Source: an uncultured Dehalococcoidia bacterium (GTDB lineage Bacteria > Chloroflexota > Dehalococcoidia > Dehalococcoidales > UBA1222). From it: DNA of 64,000 nucleotides. How positions within the stretch are numbered: position 1 is the first letter of the stretch; the number at the start of each line of letters is the position of its first letter. The translations under genes and the position numbers were made by a program. Location: contig CAIMVG010000009.1 in assembly GCA_903844845.1 (NCBI GenBank), positions 62,001-126,000 on the forward strand, given 5' to 3'. The notes beneath the pieces are model-generated. The model ran no database searches, was not told the origin of the DNA, and was given only the letters and a program-made list of their open reading frames with translations. Positions 5,379-15,671 of this stretch are shown here, piece after piece.

Positions 5379-6020
5379 CTACCGGCTAAGCTTCCAGGCC
5401 AAAATCTCACACAGGACTGTAATATCTTCGGTGGACAGATAACCGGTGACGCTACTATCGAAAAGGATATTTCCTTCCGCGGGGAGTTCTTCATCCCCCA
5501 GCCACAAAGTTACTGTGACGGGCACGCGGGGAAAGGCTAAAATCCTGAAGGAAAAATCCCCCGTTTCCGCTTTCAGACCTCCGATGGATTCCGCAGTTGC
5601 CACGAGAGCCTCCGGCCTGTCCGCGAACCTGTCGAGAAGGGGCTTGACGCTTCGTTTGACGAATGTCGGATAATAAATGCCGCCTTCGGGCAGTTCCCTG
5701 AAAGTGACAGGTTTCCCGGTAAGAGGCGAACCATCGGCCGTCACGAGGTAATGCAGGATGAGTAACATGTCCCGCGGGGATAGCGGTTCGCCGCTTGCGG
5801 ATGACACTATGATATCCGGAAGTTGAACCCGGCATTCGCGCCCTAGGTAGCTCAGAGAGATCGACTGACGGCCGTTTTCGTTGCGCAGGGCAGCAGCGCT
5901 TCTCCGACATAACTGCGCCAGTTCAGCCCCCAAAAGTTTGCGGCTTGCGATTGCGAACGCCTGTCGATGGGCCTCATCGAAACCATGCCGCGACATGCCG
6001 CCAAGGGCGGTTTCACTCAT
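5379..6020 (-). CDS. DUF3786 domain protein
   Basis: A 213-aa soluble protein resembling the DUF3786 family, common in anaerobes that carry CODH/ACS genes; its function is unknown. Family-like stretches are LSPRDMLLILHYL, the FRELPEGGIYYPTF core, and FPRVPVTVTLWLGDEE with ILFDSS near the C-terminus. No signal peptide or membrane helix. The start is ATG at 6020 with AGCAGGT upstream. It stands downstream of the two giant genes on the same strand, separated by about 90 bp, so it could be read from their transcript or have its own promoter. Confidence 0.75.
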   Translation of the reverse strand: MSETALGGMSRHGFDEAHRQAFAIASRKLLGAELAQLCRRSAAALRNENGRQSISLSYLGRECRVQLPDIIVSSASGEPLSPRDMLLILHYLVTADGSPLTGKPVTFRELPEGGIYYPTFVKRSVKPLLDRFADRPEALVATAESIGGLKAETGDFSFRILAFPRVPVTVTLWLGDEELPAEGNILFDSSVTGYLSTEDITVLCEILAWKLSR

Positions 6021-6111: not shown

Positions 6112-9100
6112 TTAAGGCACCAGTTCAACGGCATCAGCATAAACCAACCGGCGCCTTACTATCGGAATCTCACCGGGTTCGTTGTAGTGTTCGAATTCTT
6201 TGACGAGCAGCCGGTAGGTATGTGTCCCATCTGGCAAAGTGATATCCCCCGTCCAAGTGGTATTACCGGTTTTATCCGTTTCAACCAGATTATGACCGAG
6301 CGTAACTGCGCTTGATTTATCGGATAATGTTACCGGTTCCCAGACCAATTCTCCGGCTTCTTCTGGTTTTAATCCGGCACGCTGTTTTTCCAGGCTAATC
6401 TCTACCACGCCGGGGCCGGATTGCCCGTTGAACATCTGGTAACTTCTGCCTGTGACTGAAACATGGCGCAGCAGCGGATTCGAATCGTTTCGACTGATGC
6501 TGGCATAGCGGTTTGGAGTAAGTTGGACGAAATCGGCCAGGACAACCCGTGACAGGTGTACGTTGTCGCTGCCCGGAAGGATTATCGTGCCGGTCCCCGT
6601 AATAGCGCCGGAGAGAGAGTTAGGCTGGTAAGCAGCCAGGGCTAAACGCACGAATGGGAAATAGCTCTGTCCCGCATCGATATCCATGTCACAGTACCAC
6701 AGGCGGCGCTCGCTGTTATAAGCTACCGCATGGCCGGCCACATTTACCTTCACTTTTTCATCCGGCACCTCTTCGAGTACCAGCCCGGCGGCCTGGTACT
6801 CCGGCTTCGAAAGCGGGAATGCCGCAAGGCTCGGGCTTGCATCGGCCGCCTGTGATTGGAAAACGGGATCCAGACCCCACTGCGTAATATATGGTTTGAC
6901 CCTCTCCGGCGGGAACTGGTTTATCAGAAAATTACTGGTGGAGCCAGGCCAGATAATGGCACCCAGCAGTTGACCGTCTCCAGACGTATACCAGGGCCTG
7001 TCCAGATAGATGCGGATGCCGCCGGTACGCTGGCTGCTGACAACCTTTTTATCCGTGCTTCCAGTGTTCATTTGCCAGGTGAAAGTCGGCACGATGTAAA
7101 GCACCCTGGGCGCTGCCGGACGCGCCGCACTCAGGATATTCAAGGTTTTCGGCTGTGTCATTTCGCGGGTGATGGGAGGCACCAGGTAGGTTACTTCAAG
7201 GTATACGTTTTCCGGGATAGCGCTTGCAGATTCGGAAGGATCCGTGCGACGGATGGTTCCGTTGACATAATCTACGACATAATCACCTGTTTTATGGGTG
7301 GAATCATAGCATTTGTAGTTTGCGGTGTTGTCCGCCAGCCGCACTGCCTCGGAACCTACCACCACACCTTTGGCATCAAGAGTGAAAGTATCCTTGCCCT
7401 TGAGCCGGACATCTTTTCTGCGCTGCAGGAAATACTCGCTGAAACGGGTGGTGGCAATAGCGGAATAGGTCACATCCCGGTGTTTGGTGTCACCGAATTC
7501 GTGATTGCCATGGACATACAGGCTTTGTTCTTCAGCCGGTTCGCCGGGCAGGGGCACCGGGAACTCGTAAGGCCGGGCTTTGCCGTGTATCACCCTAGGC
7601 GCTGCCTCTCCCAGCGGATCTATAGTTTCGTCCCAGGAAGCCGTGATATCCAGTTTTATCGTACTCTTGCGGTGTACGGTCATCTGCCGATCGTAAATCT
7701 CGGCGAAAGTCTGGCCGACGCCACGAACCCTTCCCAATTGGGCGCTGAACTCGGGTGTAATCAACGGCTGGCGCACGGCATGCACCAGCGTCAACACCCG
7801 GTAGGGCGTCAACATCCAGTGCAGACCCTGGGCGGCCAATGTACGGACGGCAGCTTCGGATAGGCCTGATTCGATTATCCACTGGATAAGACCCATTTGC
7901 ATGGCGCCGTCTTTGGTCATGAACGAACTCAGCCGCACCTGTACCAACTCAGCCTTGGGCAACAGCACCTGAAGAATATGCTTGGAGCTGTCGGGCTTAA
8001 CCGATGCCGTATCGGATTCCCCCAGCACCAGTCTGAACGGCAGTGCATCCGGCCACCTGGCACCCGCAGAATAACCGAAATCGAACAGGTACGGCGCGCT
8101 GGTCCCGGGAAGGTTGCGCAGTGCTGCACCGCGGGAGAGGACGTCGGGCAGATAGGGCAGTTCCAGGTTATCCGCATTTACATACGGCCGGTTATAGTTG
8201 TCAGGATCGGGTTGACCCGTTATGGTGCCGTCCTCTTTGGAGATGATCAATTTATACGCGTTTGCATCCACCTGACTATTCGCGGTGTTATCAAACAGCT
8301 GGTGCTCTTCCCCCTGCGTCTGGGAAGTCTTGGGCGGGACGATATGGCGCTCCGTCACCGCCTCGATGGCCTGGTTGTAATTGCTGCGTATTACAAGACG
8401 CTCTACGGATTCACCCTCGGTACGGCGGTTACGCATCACCACTGCGGGCGGCGGCACCGGTTCGAAGCGCCCGTAAACCAGAGGTTTGGTAGCATGGGAA
8501 TCACTTCCCAGTGCTTTATCATCTATCGCCAAACGGTTTCCTGCCAGATCGACAGCCCGTGCCCGCATGCGGTAAGTTACACCAAAACGCAATCTGGGCA
8601 GGGAAGTTGCCTTTGGCTTGAAATGGACCGCCAGTTTGAAATCGGGGTCTATTTCCGTTCCCGGGGGCGCAGGATTGCCATCGGCATCGATGGTCTTGCC
8701 GGGCCTAGGCGCGGCAAGGCTCCACCCACACCAGCGAAAAAGTGATTCACCCTGACGTAAAATATCAGAAGAGCCGTCGGCTGCAGAGGTCATACCTGCG
8801 GATACCCAGCCTTCATCGTCCGCCTTTTCAAGGATAGAGGGTGTTGTCCTGGTAAACTCGTAAGTACCGGTCCGCTGGCACAAAGAGTGCCATCTGGAGC
8901 TTAAAGAATCCCACACGTCTATGGTGAAGCCCCGGGTGATGTCTTCGGCATCCAGTGTGATGTTAGTGTTATTTGTCATATTCAGGTTGAGCACGTCCTG
9001 GCGGACGAAAGTTGCGTGGCTCTGCTGGGCCCGGTTGACCCGGGCTACCGACAAACCTCCCGAACGCAACGACGGCACCGATGAAGTTTCCGGCGTGTCG

Positions 9101-10140
9101 TCGGTCTTGCGCAAGGTCCTGGCCATGCCCAGGTTGCTGGCGAAGGCCAGTGTCTTGAGGGCTGCGCCATCGGGGTCGATGCGCACCACCTCATATCGAT
9201 CTGTATCTTCGAAAGGCAACATGCCATCCGCCAGTTCCGGGCTGTTTGCCCGCGGCAATGCATAGAAAGCACTCGTCGAAATACGGCAACGAGTATCGAG
9301 CCGCTGGTTGTCGTTGGGGGTATTGACCGTGGTTACGCTTGAATCCCGCGACTTCCAGTTAACGATGACCTGCACGGTGGTATCTCCGACAATTTGCAGC
9401 GGTACTTCCAGATCAAACACCAGCCCCAGGCTTTTCAGCAGAACGGGATAATCTCCCAGTGATGAGATCATTCGATGGAAATCGATGGAAGGGCTGGATA
9501 TCTTTACCATCGTCGCGCTAAACGGTTGGTGGAAGAGCTTGGCCTGGATGAATGATTTTGCGAGCGCACTGGGGTCGGCGATGTTTCCCTGTGTCAGGTA
9601 TTTGTTCTTGTCCAGTTCCTGCATGAGGCTCGAGGTTAACGACTTTTCGTTGCTGTCACGCAATGAGAAGGCCAGGGGGTTAAAAGGAGCGCCGGTATCC
9701 TTGACCAGCGCATCTGCCGACGGAAATTCCTGGCCCGAGGTAGCAGCAAGCGATACATACTGCTGTTTTAGAAAGGACTGTATGTTCTTTGCCGGGTAGG
9801 ACTGTATCGCCTTGTTTTTATAACTCACAGGTGCATACGATTCTACCAGAGAGGTATCGGGGAAAAGGGCTTTCCAGAGGTCCGACCGGGGCGACGGGCT
9901 TGTTCTCGTAGCCGGAACAGCTTTTAGGGTGCCGAATTGAACCGAGAAAGATGCCCCGGCGGCGGCGGAGAAAAGGGTTCCCGGCCAATCCAGAAAGTCG
10001 GTGAACAAAGATAGAGTGGGAGATGTTTTATCGGTCTGCAAGCGCGGCGAAACAAAGACGGACAACTTGAGTATCGTGCCGGCCCGGGTCACGGTGACTC
10101 CGTTGGGCAAAGCTGTCCACATAACCGTCTGATTTTTCAT
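6112..10140 (-). CDS. Giant conserved-type protein of unknown function (1342 aa)
   Basis: Very large protein with no family I can name and no signal peptide or membrane helix at its N-terminus (MKNQTVMWTALPNGVTV). The sequence looks beta-rich and modular: a segment around residue 510 (YRMRARAVDLAGNRL) resembles a fibronectin/Ig-like strand pattern, and further segments read as domains joined by Pro/Gly linkers. No catalytic or nucleotide-binding motif stands out. It starts 24 bp after the 1178-aa gene and shares its direction, so they are surely co-transcribed. Base composition is like the neighbouring genes. A structural, surface or particle-forming role is a guess from size and composition only. 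Confidence 0.8.
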   Translation of the reverse strand: MKNQTVMWTALPNGVTVTRAGTILKLSVFVSPRLQTDKTSPTLSLFTDFLDWPGTLFSAAAGASFSVQFGTLKAVPATRTSPSPRSDLWKALFPDTSLVESYAPVSYKNKAIQSYPAKNIQSFLKQQYVSLAATSGQEFPSADALVKDTGAPFNPLAFSLRDSNEKSLTSSLMQELDKNKYLTQGNIADPSALAKSFIQAKLFHQPFSATMVKISSPSIDFHRMISSLGDYPVLLKSLGLVFDLEVPLQIVGDTTVQVIVNWKSRDSSVTTVNTPNDNQRLDTRCRISTSAFYALPRANSPELADGMLPFEDTDRYEVVRIDPDGAALKTLAFASNLGMARTLRKTDDTPETSSVPSLRSGGLSVARVNRAQQSHATFVRQDVLNLNMTNNTNITLDAEDITRGFTIDVWDSLSSRWHSLCQRTGTYEFTRTTPSILEKADDEGWVSAGMTSAADGSSDILRQGESLFRWCGWSLAAPRPGKTIDADGNPAPPGTEIDPDFKLAVHFKPKATSLPRLRFGVTYRMRARAVDLAGNRLAIDDKALGSDSHATKPLVYGRFEPVPPPAVVMRNRRTEGESVERLVIRSNYNQAIEAVTERHIVPPKTSQTQGEEHQLFDNTANSQVDANAYKLIISKEDGTITGQPDPDNYNRPYVNADNLELPYLPDVLSRGAALRNLPGTSAPYLFDFGYSAGARWPDALPFRLVLGESDTASVKPDSSKHILQVLLPKAELVQVRLSSFMTKDGAMQMGLIQWIIESGLSEAAVRTLAAQGLHWMLTPYRVLTLVHAVRQPLITPEFSAQLGRVRGVGQTFAEIYDRQMTVHRKSTIKLDITASWDETIDPLGEAAPRVIHGKARPYEFPVPLPGEPAEEQSLYVHGNHEFGDTKHRDVTYSAIATTRFSEYFLQRRKDVRLKGKDTFTLDAKGVVVGSEAVRLADNTANYKCYDSTHKTGDYVVDYVNGTIRRTDPSESASAIPENVYLEVTYLVPPITREMTQPKTLNILSAARPAAPRVLYIVPTFTWQMNTGSTDKKVVSSQRTGGIRIYLDRPWYTSGDGQLLGAIIWPGSTSNFLINQFPPERVKPYITQWGLDPVFQSQAADASPSLAAFPLSKPEYQAAGLVLEEVPDEKVKVNVAGHAVAYNSERRLWYCDMDIDAGQSYFPFVRLALAAYQPNSLSGAITGTGTIILPGSDNVHLSRVVLADFVQLTPNRYASISRNDSNPLLRHVSVTGRSYQMFNGQSGPGVVEISLEKQRAGLKPEEAGELVWEPVTLSDKSSAVTLGHNLVETDKTGNTTWTGDITLPDGTHTYRLLVKEFEHYNEPGEIPIVRRRLVYADAVELVP

Positions 10141-10164
10141 ATCTTATCTCTCTCCTCTCTCCAG

Positions 10165-13100
10165 CTATCCCGAAAGCGGAGCGAAAGCCCCTGCGTAAGT
10201 AGTCCAGTCGCTCTGGCTCATGAGGTCTTCAAAGTTGCCCCCGGTGCCTTTGACACTGCTGGCGAGTTTGATGGGTGAACCGATCCCCGGCACGCCGGAG
10301 GTTGACTGGTTATCGCTGCCGCCAGCCAGGCGCCGTTCCACAGACAATTCGACGCTGGTGCTGAAGAAAAGCACTTCGACTTTAACCGTCAGTTTGGCCT
10401 GCCCCCACAGCTCGTTGGCGGTGATCTTGTATTCCATTCCCAGGTAGAATTCGATAGAAACTGTGATAATGCCGAGTACTTCCAGCGAGCCCCCTATGCG
10501 GATATAAGAGGTGAGCGAGGCAGACTCGTCCGGCTGCCCGATCTTTTCCATCTCGTAGTAGATACCGCCCATCACATGTACCTGGCCCGTGGCCACACCG
10601 AGGTTCAGCGCCATGCTGGCTCCGAATTCGAGGGCGGCTTCCAGCCGTTCTACGCCGTCCAGACCGATTTCGATGGCAAAGAACCCTCCGCCTCCGAAAG
10701 CATAAATCGTCAGCAGGAAAGGCTGTTCCCGTTCGCAGAAGTTAAAGCGCAGGCGTGCCGGATTCCCGGTGAAGGGGATGATCAACTTGGCACCCAGGGA
10801 TATGTTCTGGATAGTCACCACACCGAAGGCCACCGTCGGGATAGGCAGCGTAAAACCGGCGCTTACCTGTGTTGGGGTGATGTCGATGTTCAACCCGCTG
10901 CCGGAAGACTTCATAAAATCTTTCAGTGCATTGACGAACGTCAGTACTCCGGCAAACTCGACCTTGTCGATATCGACGTCAACATTGGGCTTCTTCCCTG
11001 TTTCCGAAGTAAAAATCACTTTGTTGAAGTGAAGCCGCAGGAACAGAAAATCCTCGCCGAGTATATTGATCCAGAAACTGCGCAGATCTCCCACGATGTT
11101 GTAGGTGGGCTCGCCGGGAGGATCCACAGGAGTGATAAAAGTACCCTTGACCTCCATGCTTGTCGAGCCCGAAGTTTCAAATATCTTCATGGGGTCTGCT
11201 TTTAGATCCGGCAACCAGTCGAGACGCGTCTCAAGAGACTGAGGGGGCAGGCTGTTATTGCCGTTGGGGTAGATAACATAATTGGTGAGCTGCGGGGTCT
11301 TGCGCCCTTCGCCGAAATTGGCAGGTTTGATGATATCCGCCAGTGAGATGCCTCCCAGTATTTTCGCGCCGTTAAAGAAACTCGCGGGGTTAAACTGGGT
11401 GGGCGTGGAGTCAACCGTGCCGCCTACAACCCCTATGGTGCGCGACAGCCCGCCGATCTTAATATTGGGAGTAACGGTTCCTCCAGATTTATCACCTGCC
11501 CCGTCGAAGCTCAGGTCCACCTGGTTTTTCAGTTTAGCCCATATGTATCCCGGGTTGGTTGATTTATCGAAACCATGGGTGCGGAAATCAGGATGTAACT
11601 GGATGATAACCGGACCGGGGAATGCCCCGCCGGTAGCCTGTTCGGCACTCGGCAATCGAACCACAGCTTCCTGCCAGGTGGGAAAGAACCGCGCCTGGTC
11701 ATCAGGCAAGGCAGCATCGGGAGGCGCGGGCAGAGCCGCTCCAAGGATGATGCTCTTGACTTCGGCGCTGGTGTCGCCTGCTTTCCCGTCTGCCACGCCC
11801 TCTGACTTTGAACTAGGGGCAAAAGCGACTTTCTGGCCTTGCAACAGCCGTTCCCGGCGCGACTGGTTTTCAGCGGCGGATTTGTAAGCAGTAATGGCCG
11901 GATCGATAAACTCGGCAACGTCATCCGCTTTTTGCAATGTGGATGAAATGAAGGCCAACGGGCAGGTAAATTCGGTGCGTTGACCATCAATATCTTCCGC
12001 TGACATGTGAAACAGGAAGTCCTGTCCGCCCACGCGCGGCCAGAAAGCTTTCTGCCCTTTGTTTACCAGGTCATTGACCGGGTCGGCAGGATTATCCAGT
12101 ATGGGCGTGATGAGACTGGTGATGCGGGCATTTACGAACGGCCACTCACGCCCCCCATAGGGCTGGGAGGTATGAGCCGGATAAGTCTTAAGGGGTTGGC
12201 GTACTACTATGTAGAAACGCTGGCGCAGATAGGCTGCGGTTTGCCCTGACAAGGGACCGCCGGAGGGGACCGCCTGGAACTTCCGTTCGGTGATCTTGAC
12301 CAGAGTAGCGGCATGACCGGTTGGGAATAGAAAACCTTTATAAACCACGCGCACGTAGTGGTCCCTGCCCATGGTGGCCAGGTGCCGCCACTCCAGGATG
12401 TCCATGTCCGCCGAGGCCGGCGCGTTGGGCCACTCTCCCCGGGTATTCATCCAGGCTCCCAGGGTGCTGAGCATGAAGCGTTCCACCTGGACAGGCGATG
12501 GTTTGTAATACAGAGGCACTTCTGCCGGTATCTGGATATTGTAATCCGACATCAGGCGCACCAGTTGCCAGCGATCGTTTTTGGTGAGGGACATACGGAA
12601 TGGCAATGAATCGTTGGCATCCGGGGACTTGCCGCGTTCGAACCCCTGCGCCCAAACTGCACGCAGAGTCCGGTAAAATTCCTGTTGCTCGTCCACCAGG
12701 TATTGTCCCGCGTGGTTTGGATCAGTGATACGCACCCCCAGGCGGGTATGCCATAGTTCTGTGCGATTGTTTTTGGTGACAGGATCGATGGCGTGAGCCC
12801 AGCCAGCCTTGATACTGGGCGACATAACAAGTTGCCATGGCACCTCGATGGCGGTCTCGGTCTTAAGTGGTTCGACAGGGACCTGCCCCAGTGTCGGATC
12901 TTTGGTAGCTGTTGCAGCTTTGGATAGCGCCTGCGAAGGGGGTTGGGCGGTAACGGTGACGCTCATCTGATTCTTCTGCCATGAGAGCAGTTCTTCCATG
13001 GTGAAAGGGATGGGACCGGTGTACTGAATCATGAAGGCCAGACGGCTCGGACCTGCAAAGCGCACCCCAACCGATCCGGGTTGATCCGGCGTCTCGCCGC

Positions 13101-13701
13101 CGCCGGGCGGGTTGGGAGAATTATTGGGATCCTCTGTATCACTGCCGATCTCTGCGGCTGTTTCCAGATAGGCTTCTTCGCCGATGTTCTGGGGTGAATA
13201 ATCGTTCCCGTGACCGAGTGTGATGACCACACCGACGGCTTGATTTGAGTTCTGACGCAGGAGAGTGCCTCCCTGCAAAACAAGGTTATAGAAATCAAAT
13301 TTGAGGGCCAGCATGTCCGCTTTCCGGAAGACTGAAGCGGTAAAGCTGGGATCTCCTTCGAGGTCTGTGATCTTTGGAGGATTGCAGGCTACTATATTCT
13401 TGAAATTCCCGGAATTGCAGGATGATTGCGCAAGCATGGCGTCCAGGAGCAGCGCCGAGGCGCCAAACACGGATAGTTTGATGAATTTACGCCGCGTCAA
13501 AGGGGGAATGTCGGCCCGGTCAAAGAAGCCCAAAAGTTGCAGACTGACCTCCGGTTCTTTTTCAGGGGGGATTCCGTTTTGGGCAACAAATTCTTTGATG
13601 ATTTTTACCAGTTTCTGCCGTTCTATATATTTGCCATCGTGCGATTTGGGGCTTTTTTTTGCGATATTGTCCTCGTGCCCATTAGTACCATTATTATCCA
13701 T
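10165..13701 (-). CDS. Giant protein with internal Tat-like signal (1178 aa)
   Basis: Large protein of unknown function. After a hydrophilic leader of about 75 residues comes LTRRKFIKLSVFGASALLLD, a twin-arginine motif with hydrophobic core, followed by AQSSC. This suggests Tat export or anchoring, though the leader is unusually long. The middle (about residues 200-800) is Pro/Gly-rich with many short beta-like strands. The C-terminal 300 residues alternate hydrophobic and polar residues (for example AIEIGLDGVERLEAALEFGA) like a large beta-sandwich or barrel. The ATG at 13701 follows AGGAGGT; a strong promoter lies at 13868-13896. First gene of a two-gene unit with the 1342-aa protein. Confidence 0.8.
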   Translation of the reverse strand: MDNNGTNGHEDNIAKKSPKSHDGKYIERQKLVKIIKEFVAQNGIPPEKEPEVSLQLLGFFDRADIPPLTRRKFIKLSVFGASALLLDAMLAQSSCNSGNFKNIVACNPPKITDLEGDPSFTASVFRKADMLALKFDFYNLVLQGGTLLRQNSNQAVGVVITLGHGNDYSPQNIGEEAYLETAAEIGSDTEDPNNSPNPPGGGETPDQPGSVGVRFAGPSRLAFMIQYTGPIPFTMEELLSWQKNQMSVTVTAQPPSQALSKAATATKDPTLGQVPVEPLKTETAIEVPWQLVMSPSIKAGWAHAIDPVTKNNRTELWHTRLGVRITDPNHAGQYLVDEQQEFYRTLRAVWAQGFERGKSPDANDSLPFRMSLTKNDRWQLVRLMSDYNIQIPAEVPLYYKPSPVQVERFMLSTLGAWMNTRGEWPNAPASADMDILEWRHLATMGRDHYVRVVYKGFLFPTGHAATLVKITERKFQAVPSGGPLSGQTAAYLRQRFYIVVRQPLKTYPAHTSQPYGGREWPFVNARITSLITPILDNPADPVNDLVNKGQKAFWPRVGGQDFLFHMSAEDIDGQRTEFTCPLAFISSTLQKADDVAEFIDPAITAYKSAAENQSRRERLLQGQKVAFAPSSKSEGVADGKAGDTSAEVKSIILGAALPAPPDAALPDDQARFFPTWQEAVVRLPSAEQATGGAFPGPVIIQLHPDFRTHGFDKSTNPGYIWAKLKNQVDLSFDGAGDKSGGTVTPNIKIGGLSRTIGVVGGTVDSTPTQFNPASFFNGAKILGGISLADIIKPANFGEGRKTPQLTNYVIYPNGNNSLPPQSLETRLDWLPDLKADPMKIFETSGSTSMEVKGTFITPVDPPGEPTYNIVGDLRSFWINILGEDFLFLRLHFNKVIFTSETGKKPNVDVDIDKVEFAGVLTFVNALKDFMKSSGSGLNIDITPTQVSAGFTLPIPTVAFGVVTIQNISLGAKLIIPFTGNPARLRFNFCEREQPFLLTIYAFGGGGFFAIEIGLDGVERLEAALEFGASMALNLGVATGQVHVMGGIYYEMEKIGQPDESASLTSYIRIGGSLEVLGIITVSIEFYLGMEYKITANELWGQAKLTVKVEVLFFSTSVELSVERRLAGGSDNQSTSGVPGIGSPIKLASSVKGTGGNFEDLMSQSDWTTYAGAFAPLSG

Positions 13702-13751
13702 GATGGATACCTCCTGAGAACTTGAGGGCTCCTTTAGTTTCTGTATCTTAA

Positions 13752-13867: not shown

Positions 13868-13896
13868 ACTATAAGCGTGTTAAATGGTCATGTCAA
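13868..13896 (-). promoter_or_regulatory. Strong promoter of the giant-protein operon
   Basis: Minus strand TTGACA (13896-13891), exact 17-nt spacer, TATAGT (13873-13868): close to the sigma-70 consensus. Transcription would start near 13861, leaving a leader of about 160 nt. Confidence 0.7.
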
Positions 13897-14188: not shown

Positions 14189-14881
14189 TCAGGCAGCAGG
14201 CTGAAGGTCAGCGATACGCACCACGGTACCATGGTCTTTGATATAGCGAGATACCGGACCCCCCAGGGCTTCGATGCGCTCGTCGGGGAAGACCAGCAGA
14301 CCCGTACCTGTAGCTATGCCGTATCCGATGGATTTCTCTTTCTTTAGAGCCAATGCCGCCTGGAGTTCATCCCAGCCTGATTTTTCATCATGGGTATCGC
14401 AAAGGACATCGGCCAGCCCCATGCAAGGAAAAAGTTCGGCAGTGTCCACATCCTCCGGGTCACGCCAGCGCACCCATTCGCGCCCAAGCATGATGCTCCC
14501 TGCCGATATCCCGAAAAATGGTTTACCCTGCCGGTAGAGTTCTTGCAGGAAAACATCCATCTTGCGCCTGGCAAGGGTCTGCATGCCAAGTTCGACATCC
14601 CCGCCGCTGATGAATACTACATCAGCCTTCTCTAAAATCTCTTTTGATTGATTTATCCGCGCACCCTTTGCCATGCGGGCCAGTTTAACCGATCCCGCTC
14701 CCATATCGCGAAGGTAGCCTTCTATATGGCGGAAGAACTCCAGATCATCATCTGAGGCAGCCCCGACATAAGCCACAGCGGGCTCCTTGCAGTTATTGCT
14801 CTGAAAAAATAGTTTCACGGCGGGGTCGCGCTGGCCGCGTCCGCCGGCAAGGAGAAATAACGGGGCTCGTTTTGTTTTCAT
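14189..14881 (-). CDS. Peptidase S51 family protein (peptidase E/cyanophycinase-like), copy 1
   Basis: A 230-aa cytoplasmic serine hydrolase of the S51 class, which in known members cleaves Asp-X or isoaspartyl-type bonds. The nucleophile elbow GISAGS places Ser126, and His164 lies in CDTHDEKSGW, the usual catalytic His position. Other family marks are the N-terminal LAGGRG, AYVGAAS, and VFISGGD before the elbow. No signal peptide. It is the last gene of an operon with marR, a PaaK-like ligase and a second S51 protein (14946-15671), from which it is clearly diverged. The substrate is unknown; no cyanophycin synthetase is seen nearby. Confidence 0.82.
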   Translation of the reverse strand: MKTKRAPLFLLAGGRGQRDPAVKLFFQSNNCKEPAVAYVGAASDDDLEFFRHIEGYLRDMGAGSVKLARMAKGARINQSKEILEKADVVFISGGDVELGMQTLARRKMDVFLQELYRQGKPFFGISAGSIMLGREWVRWRDPEDVDTAELFPCMGLADVLCDTHDEKSGWDELQAALALKKEKSIGYGIATGTGLLVFPDERIEALGGPVSRYIKDHGTVVRIADLQPAA

Positions 14882-14945: not shown

Positions 14946-15671
14946 CTAACTTTTCTTCACAAAATGATCATCCGGCGACATGTCCGCTTTCTGCTCTATC
15001 GTACCTCCATGATTGGTGAAGCACGCCACCGATCCGTTTTTTGCCTGAATGCGGCCATCCGGGAATACCATCAAATAAGCCCCCGAGTTGATTCCGTAGC
15101 CGATCGCTCCGTCCCCTCTGAGTTCCAAGGCCGTTTTAAGTTCGAACCAATCATCTTTTTCAGCGTGGGTATCGCAAACAAACGGAACCAGCGCCAGGCA
15201 ATCATAAAGCCCGGGGGATGCATCACCGCCGGGTTCAGGCCAGGAGACCCATGCCTGCGCCATCATGATGCTCCCGGCTGAAACACCGATGAACAGCTTG
15301 TCTTGTTGTGCCATCTCCCTGAAGAATTCTACCATGTTCTTTTGTCGCAAAACATCCATCCCCACCTCCATATCCCCGCCGCTAAAGAACACAACGTCGG
15401 CCCCCTGGATTAGGGTACGCGCTTTGTTAAGGTCTGCGTCAGGTGCTGCTATGACTACCCGGTGAACACGGCATTTGCAGCCGATCTTGATAAGAGCGGC
15501 TATAACGAAAAACGGTATCCAGTTATCCCGAAAGCTGGCTGCGCCGATAAAGGCGAGGTCAGGGTTAGCTTTCCCGCTTTCTTTAAGGATGCGCTGAATA
15601 GCGGCAATGGTTGAATGCATGCTGTGGCCTCTGCCGCCGGCGAACAAATAGAACGGTTTCCTAGTCTCCAT
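14946..15671 (-). CDS. Peptidase S51 family protein, copy 2
   Basis: A 241-aa paralogue of the downstream gene with the same order of motifs: FAGGRGHS at the N-terminus, AFIGAASF-type strand, VVFFSGGD, the elbow GVSAGS with Ser131, and CDTHAEKDDW with His169. It begins 3 bp after the ligase gene stop, so translation is probably coupled. Both copies keep the catalytic Ser and His, so this is not an obvious active/inactive pair; they may differ in substrate or form a heterodimer. The pairing with an adenylating enzyme suggests hydrolysis of an amide made in the same pathway (inference). Confidence 0.82.
   Translation of the reverse strand: METRKPFYLFAGGRGHSMHSTIAAIQRILKESGKANPDLAFIGAASFRDNWIPFFVIAALIKIGCKCRVHRVVIAAPDADLNKARTLIQGADVVFFSGGDMEVGMDVLRQKNMVEFFREMAQQDKLFIGVSAGSIMMAQAWVSWPEPGGDASPGLYDCLALVPFVCDTHAEKDDWFELKTALELRGDGAIGYGINSGAYLMVFPDGRIQAKNGSVACFTNHGGTIEQKADMSPDDHFVKKS

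Follow-up and report, generated by a model that had tools for sequence, protein, structure and literature searches.

Two giant proteins, here called A and B, are encoded by genes that form an obligate, co-inherited pair. The pair was analysed in a window of 64,000 nucleotides, i.e. the whole stretch of DNA under study, from the 1.9 Mb genome of a Dehalococcoidales-type member of the Chloroflexota, and it is found widely but patchily in the Chloroflexota, Actinomycetota and Proteobacteria. The A and B families are new as far as the searched libraries show, and nobody seems to have described their function. That two large families missing from the libraries are locked together in all three phyla points to a conserved function. 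The result is moderately surprising, mainly because two giant families are obligately paired and because their sizes lie outside the known range of the twin-arginine (Tat) pathway.

The genes and their predicted control signals are as follows.

10165–13701, minus strand: gene A, 1178 amino acids, 128.2 kDa, transcribed first, the partner with the Tat signal (open reading frame with full-length relatives)
6112–10140, minus strand: gene B, 1342 amino acids, 147.9 kDa, second, with no export signal (open reading frame with relatives)
10141–10164, minus strand: spacer of 24 bp between the A stop and the B start
13868–13896, minus strand: predicted sigma-70-like promoter, TTGACA-17-TATAGT, 167 bp upstream of the A ATG
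13710–13715, minus strand: Shine-Dalgarno sequence AGGAGG ahead of the A ATG

An earlier note on this DNA had given the sizes of the two reading frames, the 24 bp gap and the 7.6 kb extent exactly as they stand in the open reading frame list, where A and B together span 7590 bp. Each protein is about 60% identical over its full length to relatives encoded in the same order, and thus A and B are more than chance open reading frames. The near-consensus promoter of that note also stands. It matches at 11 of 12 positions, only three matches of equal quality are present on both strands of the 64 kb window, and when the 487 bp intergenic stretch was shuffled 3000 times by dinucleotides, 17 of the shuffles contained one as good or better. 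The same AGGAGG is present in L002, L003, L004 and L006; it therefore precedes the ATG in five of five Dehalococcoidales, which supports the A start that places 69 residues before the twin arginines.

The pairing is strict. A detailed comparison of 19 loci shows A ahead of B on one strand every time. The gap between the genes ranges from −38 to 150 bp, and the matrix of A distances is concordant with that of B (Mantel r = 0.93, p = 1e-4). Neither a complete A without B nor a complete B without A was found in the searches, and lone pieces are remnants near insertion sequences only (L050 and L051). The possibility that the genes occur independently in other genomes, which would have spoken against the earlier note, is thus not borne out: the two co-occur in the same genomes and have matching trees. 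The genes flanking the pair differ between loci almost everywhere, and therefore the pair can be looked at as a self-contained module of two genes, gained or lost together. A search of the neighbours for a conserved third gene found none; long open reading frames that follow B in L042 and L044 are mutually unrelated.

Pairs with approximately 60% identity are present in four further Dehalococcoidales genomes, and these same four, among 61 relatives searched, hold both A and B. The pair is absent from G001, the other searched genome of the window's genus. A wider scan of 400 Chloroflexota genomes shows B in nine and A in the same nine. It also returned three extra A matches, of which two are fragments that run off contig ends (one on a 3022 bp contig, one at the end of an 18031 bp contig) and the third is a 24-bit match of 30 positions. 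Searches of plasmids with tblastn reveal the pair in Streptomyces, Cupriavidus metallidurans CH34, Diaphorobacter and Rhizobium, as well as longer and more diverged pairs in Sinorhizobium, Agrobacterium, Rhizobium and Ruegeria. In these giant versions A has 2277–3311 amino acids (246–363 kDa for A alone) and B mostly 1560–1899, so that A and B together reach about 570 kDa. Over all homologues, A ranges from 1100 to 3311 amino acids and B reaches 1899. The hypothetical-protein pairs on plasmids of Streptomyces, Diaphorobacter, Sinorhizobium, Rhizobium, Agrobacterium and Ruegeria are direct homologues that share the gene order of the window pair and differ from it in their variable length and, for some, in having no Tat signal. 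B has no match in phage records, and scans of viral contigs show one prophage-like contig only. This is an IMG/VR contig (L047, 1–8460) with a full A–B pair beside prophage-like genes, including a terminase-like open reading frame recognized by eye; here the pair is presumably host flank or cargo.

Neither protein resembles a characterized family. Searches of Pfam, NCBIfam, PADLOC and PDB sequences gave no match to A or B, with profiles of divergent members included, and PHROGs gave only chance-level matches to B (E of 0.04 and above). Fifteen A and 16 B homologues scanned singly, and divergent profiles compared with the PDB, likewise yielded nothing credible. This agrees with the earlier note, which recognized no domain and held that strong matches to enzyme families would count against its reading; none were found. 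A is without sequence or profile match to lipid-transfer families in Pfam or the PDB, and the weak match of one A member to the Vitellinogen beta-sheet shell (E = 0.19) is at chance level. Two A members match PF04513 (Baculo_PEP_C; best E 5e-6). This is read as a coiled-coil-like match, and the segment concerned is an insertion missing from the A of the window. A relationship between A and B themselves was rejected (profile–profile comparison probability 0.3%). Homologues in annotated records are all labelled hypothetical protein, and literature searches turned up no account of the pair.

The two proteins differ at their N-termini, where A carries a Tat-type signal.

13474–13500, minus strand: Tat motif LTRRKFIKL, A residues 68–76, with the twin arginines at 70–71
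13429–13485, minus strand: hydrophobic h-region, A residues 73–91, by hydropathy

Residues T69, R70 and R71 are invariant across the five Dehalococcoidales, and no other 19-residue window of A is as hydrophobic as residues 73–91. In the N-terminus of B both the twin arginines and a hydrophobic segment are absent. The earlier note was right that only the upstream protein has the motif; it set the motif 75 residues into the chain, which is a few residues off. The signal is unusually far in: 63–69 residues precede the twin arginines in Dehalococcoidales A, with position 70 in the window. No canonical AxA after the h-region was seen by eye in the A of the window or of the other Dehalococcoidales; an AxA is present in the giant A proteins of L012, L016 and L017. 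The genome of the window has three TatC genes that score over the Pfam cut-off. A Tat-type N-terminus is found on A in 14 of 21 readable loci, i.e. the five Dehalococcoidales, L039, L041, L042, the Streptomyces locus L013, and the giants L012, L016, L017, L048 and L049. A has no recognizable Tat signal in the other seven (L014, L015, L018, L044, L045, L047 and L052), which come from Cupriavidus, Diaphorobacter, one Rhizobium, one Streptomyces and three further loci. Tat export is therefore not a universal property of the family, and the core function may be cytoplasmic.

An explanation can be built on the following observations: the genes are obligately paired and inherited together, A has a Tat motif and B does not, A has an amphipathic region (see below), and the host has TatC. 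The explanation preferred here, to which we give an even chance, is that A and B form a large two-subunit complex and that the Tat signal of A delivers it to or across the membrane. Both would be obligate subunits of this undescribed complex and would be made from one transcript. Either the complex as a whole, or A first with B joining it, would be brought by the Tat signal of A to the cytoplasmic membrane; the outer face of this membrane would be the destination in most lineages. In Dehalococcoidales, A probably stays anchored through its signal, with about 70 residues in the cytoplasm, because the signal has no canonical signal-peptidase site. The part of A most likely to contact a membrane or a hydrophobic ligand is its C-terminal amphipathic beta region, and B may be a large scaffold bound to A. 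A broader form of this idea would make the pair a new kind of extracytoplasmic machine built from two proteins, with no relation to any described family and with members in three phyla or more. A, with 128 kDa here and as much as 363 kDa in the rhizobia and roseobacters, would then rank among the largest Tat-targeted proteins and may carry B along, well past the accepted cargo size. This broader form is offered tentatively and is somewhat doubtful.

Size is the main difficulty for transport of the whole complex. Tat cargo is cited as up to about 150 kDa (PMC6708511), and at a 1:1 ratio A and B have a mass of 276 kDa. The size of the putative complex and of the giant A proteins, as deduced from sequence, would thus count against full-complex Tat export. 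This bears on the strictest version of hitchhiking, in which A and B fold together in the cytoplasm and move through Tat as one cargo of about 276 kDa. The arrangement does look like that of known hitchhiker complexes, with an RR signal on one subunit, none on its partner and the genes together in an operon; such export is known for PaoABC (PMC4273604). Here too A is tagged, B has neither a Tat motif nor an N-terminal hydrophobic segment, and the two genes share an operon arrangement and are inherited together. In one giant locus, moreover, tatA directly follows B (see below). However, PaoABC is a redox enzyme, and A and B match no cofactor or redox domain or family; the mass exceeds the documented 150 kDa; and a third of the loci have an A without the signal. 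Passage as a single cargo is accordingly possible, with odds clearly below even. The earlier note had suggested hitchhiking export or an extracellular assembly. The obligate pair and the restriction of the signal to A fit this suggestion, and the mass and the seven signal-less loci do not. If the giant A, alone or with B, does pass through Tat, the cited size range would rise about two-fold or more.

The same facts lead to a second alternative, in which the complex is cytoplasmic or sits at the inner face of the membrane, and the ‘Tat’ segment serves chiefly as an N-terminal membrane anchor or was added in particular lineages, with no bulk export. The A and B proteins of the seven signal-less loci are otherwise full length, the Dehalococcoidales have no canonical AxA, and the sizes exceed known Tat cargo. 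Set against this, a typical Tat motif and h-region are present in very divergent A proteins, and some of these have the AxA. The genes directly after B in the giant loci also speak against it.

L012, 29036–29203 (S. meliloti, conjugative plasmid): tatA (Pfam TatA_B_E, 2.4e-9), 49 bp after B
L016, 29042–29377: small signal-peptide gene
L049, 23138–23518: small signal-peptide gene
L017, 29696–30157 and 30215–30682: two small signal-peptide genes

The tatA gene is found in one of five giant loci. The small genes of L016, L017 and L049 have Sec-type signals, read by eye; they are different and look mutually unrelated. The AxA sites, tatA and the signal-peptide genes favour a place of action at the membrane or beyond it in those lineages, and the tatA and signal-peptide genes after B lend indirect support to an extracytoplasmic role in the giant rhizobial/roseobacter branch. 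A complex that is never exported appears rather unlikely.

The preferred two-subunit complex draws also on a conserved part of A.

10324–11301, minus strand: conserved amphipathic beta-strand region, A residues ~801–1126, by beta-moment

Family-wide, 29–45% of windows in A residues 801–1100 exceed the 5% null in beta-moment, i.e. in two-residue hydrophobic periodicity; the same analysis shows no such signal in B. Residues ~801–1126 are probably a long antiparallel meander. Structure prediction, which the earlier note had proposed as a check on each protein and on the complex, was run for single chains. The AlphaFold models had a pLDDT of 34.3 for A (alignment of five sequences) and 30.2 for B residues 1–1200, and were discarded as unusable, probably because the usable alignment was too shallow. 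The low-confidence model of A draws long antiparallel strands within the beta region. A Foldseek search with it lists microsomal triglyceride transfer protein at the top, with porins frequent; at an rmsd of >20 Å and a TM of ~0.05, this list is not evidence of homology and would hint only at long, amphipathic strands in A.

This raises the question of whether A is a large carrier of lipids or other hydrophobic ligands, with a groove or barrel of amphipathic strands and B as its lid or scaffold. The beta-periodic amphipathicity of A residues ~800–1100, the long strands of the model (pLDDT 34), the Foldseek list and the Vitellinogen match of one A member all lean this way. Large size and long amphipathic beta strands are features that A has in common with the lipid transfer proteins of the MTP/vitellogenin type, and with beta-groove bridge proteins of the AsmA/TamB type, and these serve as works-like leads only. 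A and B differ from both types in that there is no sequence match and B has no counterpart there. With the model and superpositions as poor as they are, and no lipid-transfer family matched by sequence, a carrier is improbable.

An antagonism or defence cassette, in which a giant exported pair on conjugative plasmids is accompanied by small, variable exported proteins that protect, is very unlikely: the giants are on conjugative rhizobial plasmids, with L016 beside dpd genes, L049 beside a DNA methylase and a WYL gene, and variable signal-peptide genes after B, but the pair matches none of the PADLOC anti-phage defence models, no variable C-terminal domain was seen, and the window copy is on a large Dehalococcoidales MAG contig without such neighbours.

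Some minor features of the loci can be mentioned. Two genomes, G133 and G111, have two diverged copies of the pair each (L038 and L039, L040 and L041). In Agrobacterium vitis (L016, 23436–28974) B is broken into two open reading frames, and therefore this copy may be decaying. In the window, a DUF3786 gene (5379–6020, minus strand) is 91 bp after B and shares its strand; no DUF3786 was found among the scanned neighbours of other loci. Upstream of the pair are two tandem Peptidase_S51 genes of the cyanophycinase/PepE-like type (14189–14881 and 14946–15671, minus strand), both of which score under the cyanophycinase equivalog cut-off. In a raw tally, S8, serpin, M24, M35 and patatin genes are often near the pair, with S51 in the window. 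The peptidase, serpin or phospholipase neighbours are at the following positions.

L003, 12535–13587
L046, 16031–17323
L044, 14809–15921
L017, 31658–32254
L015, 19496–22009
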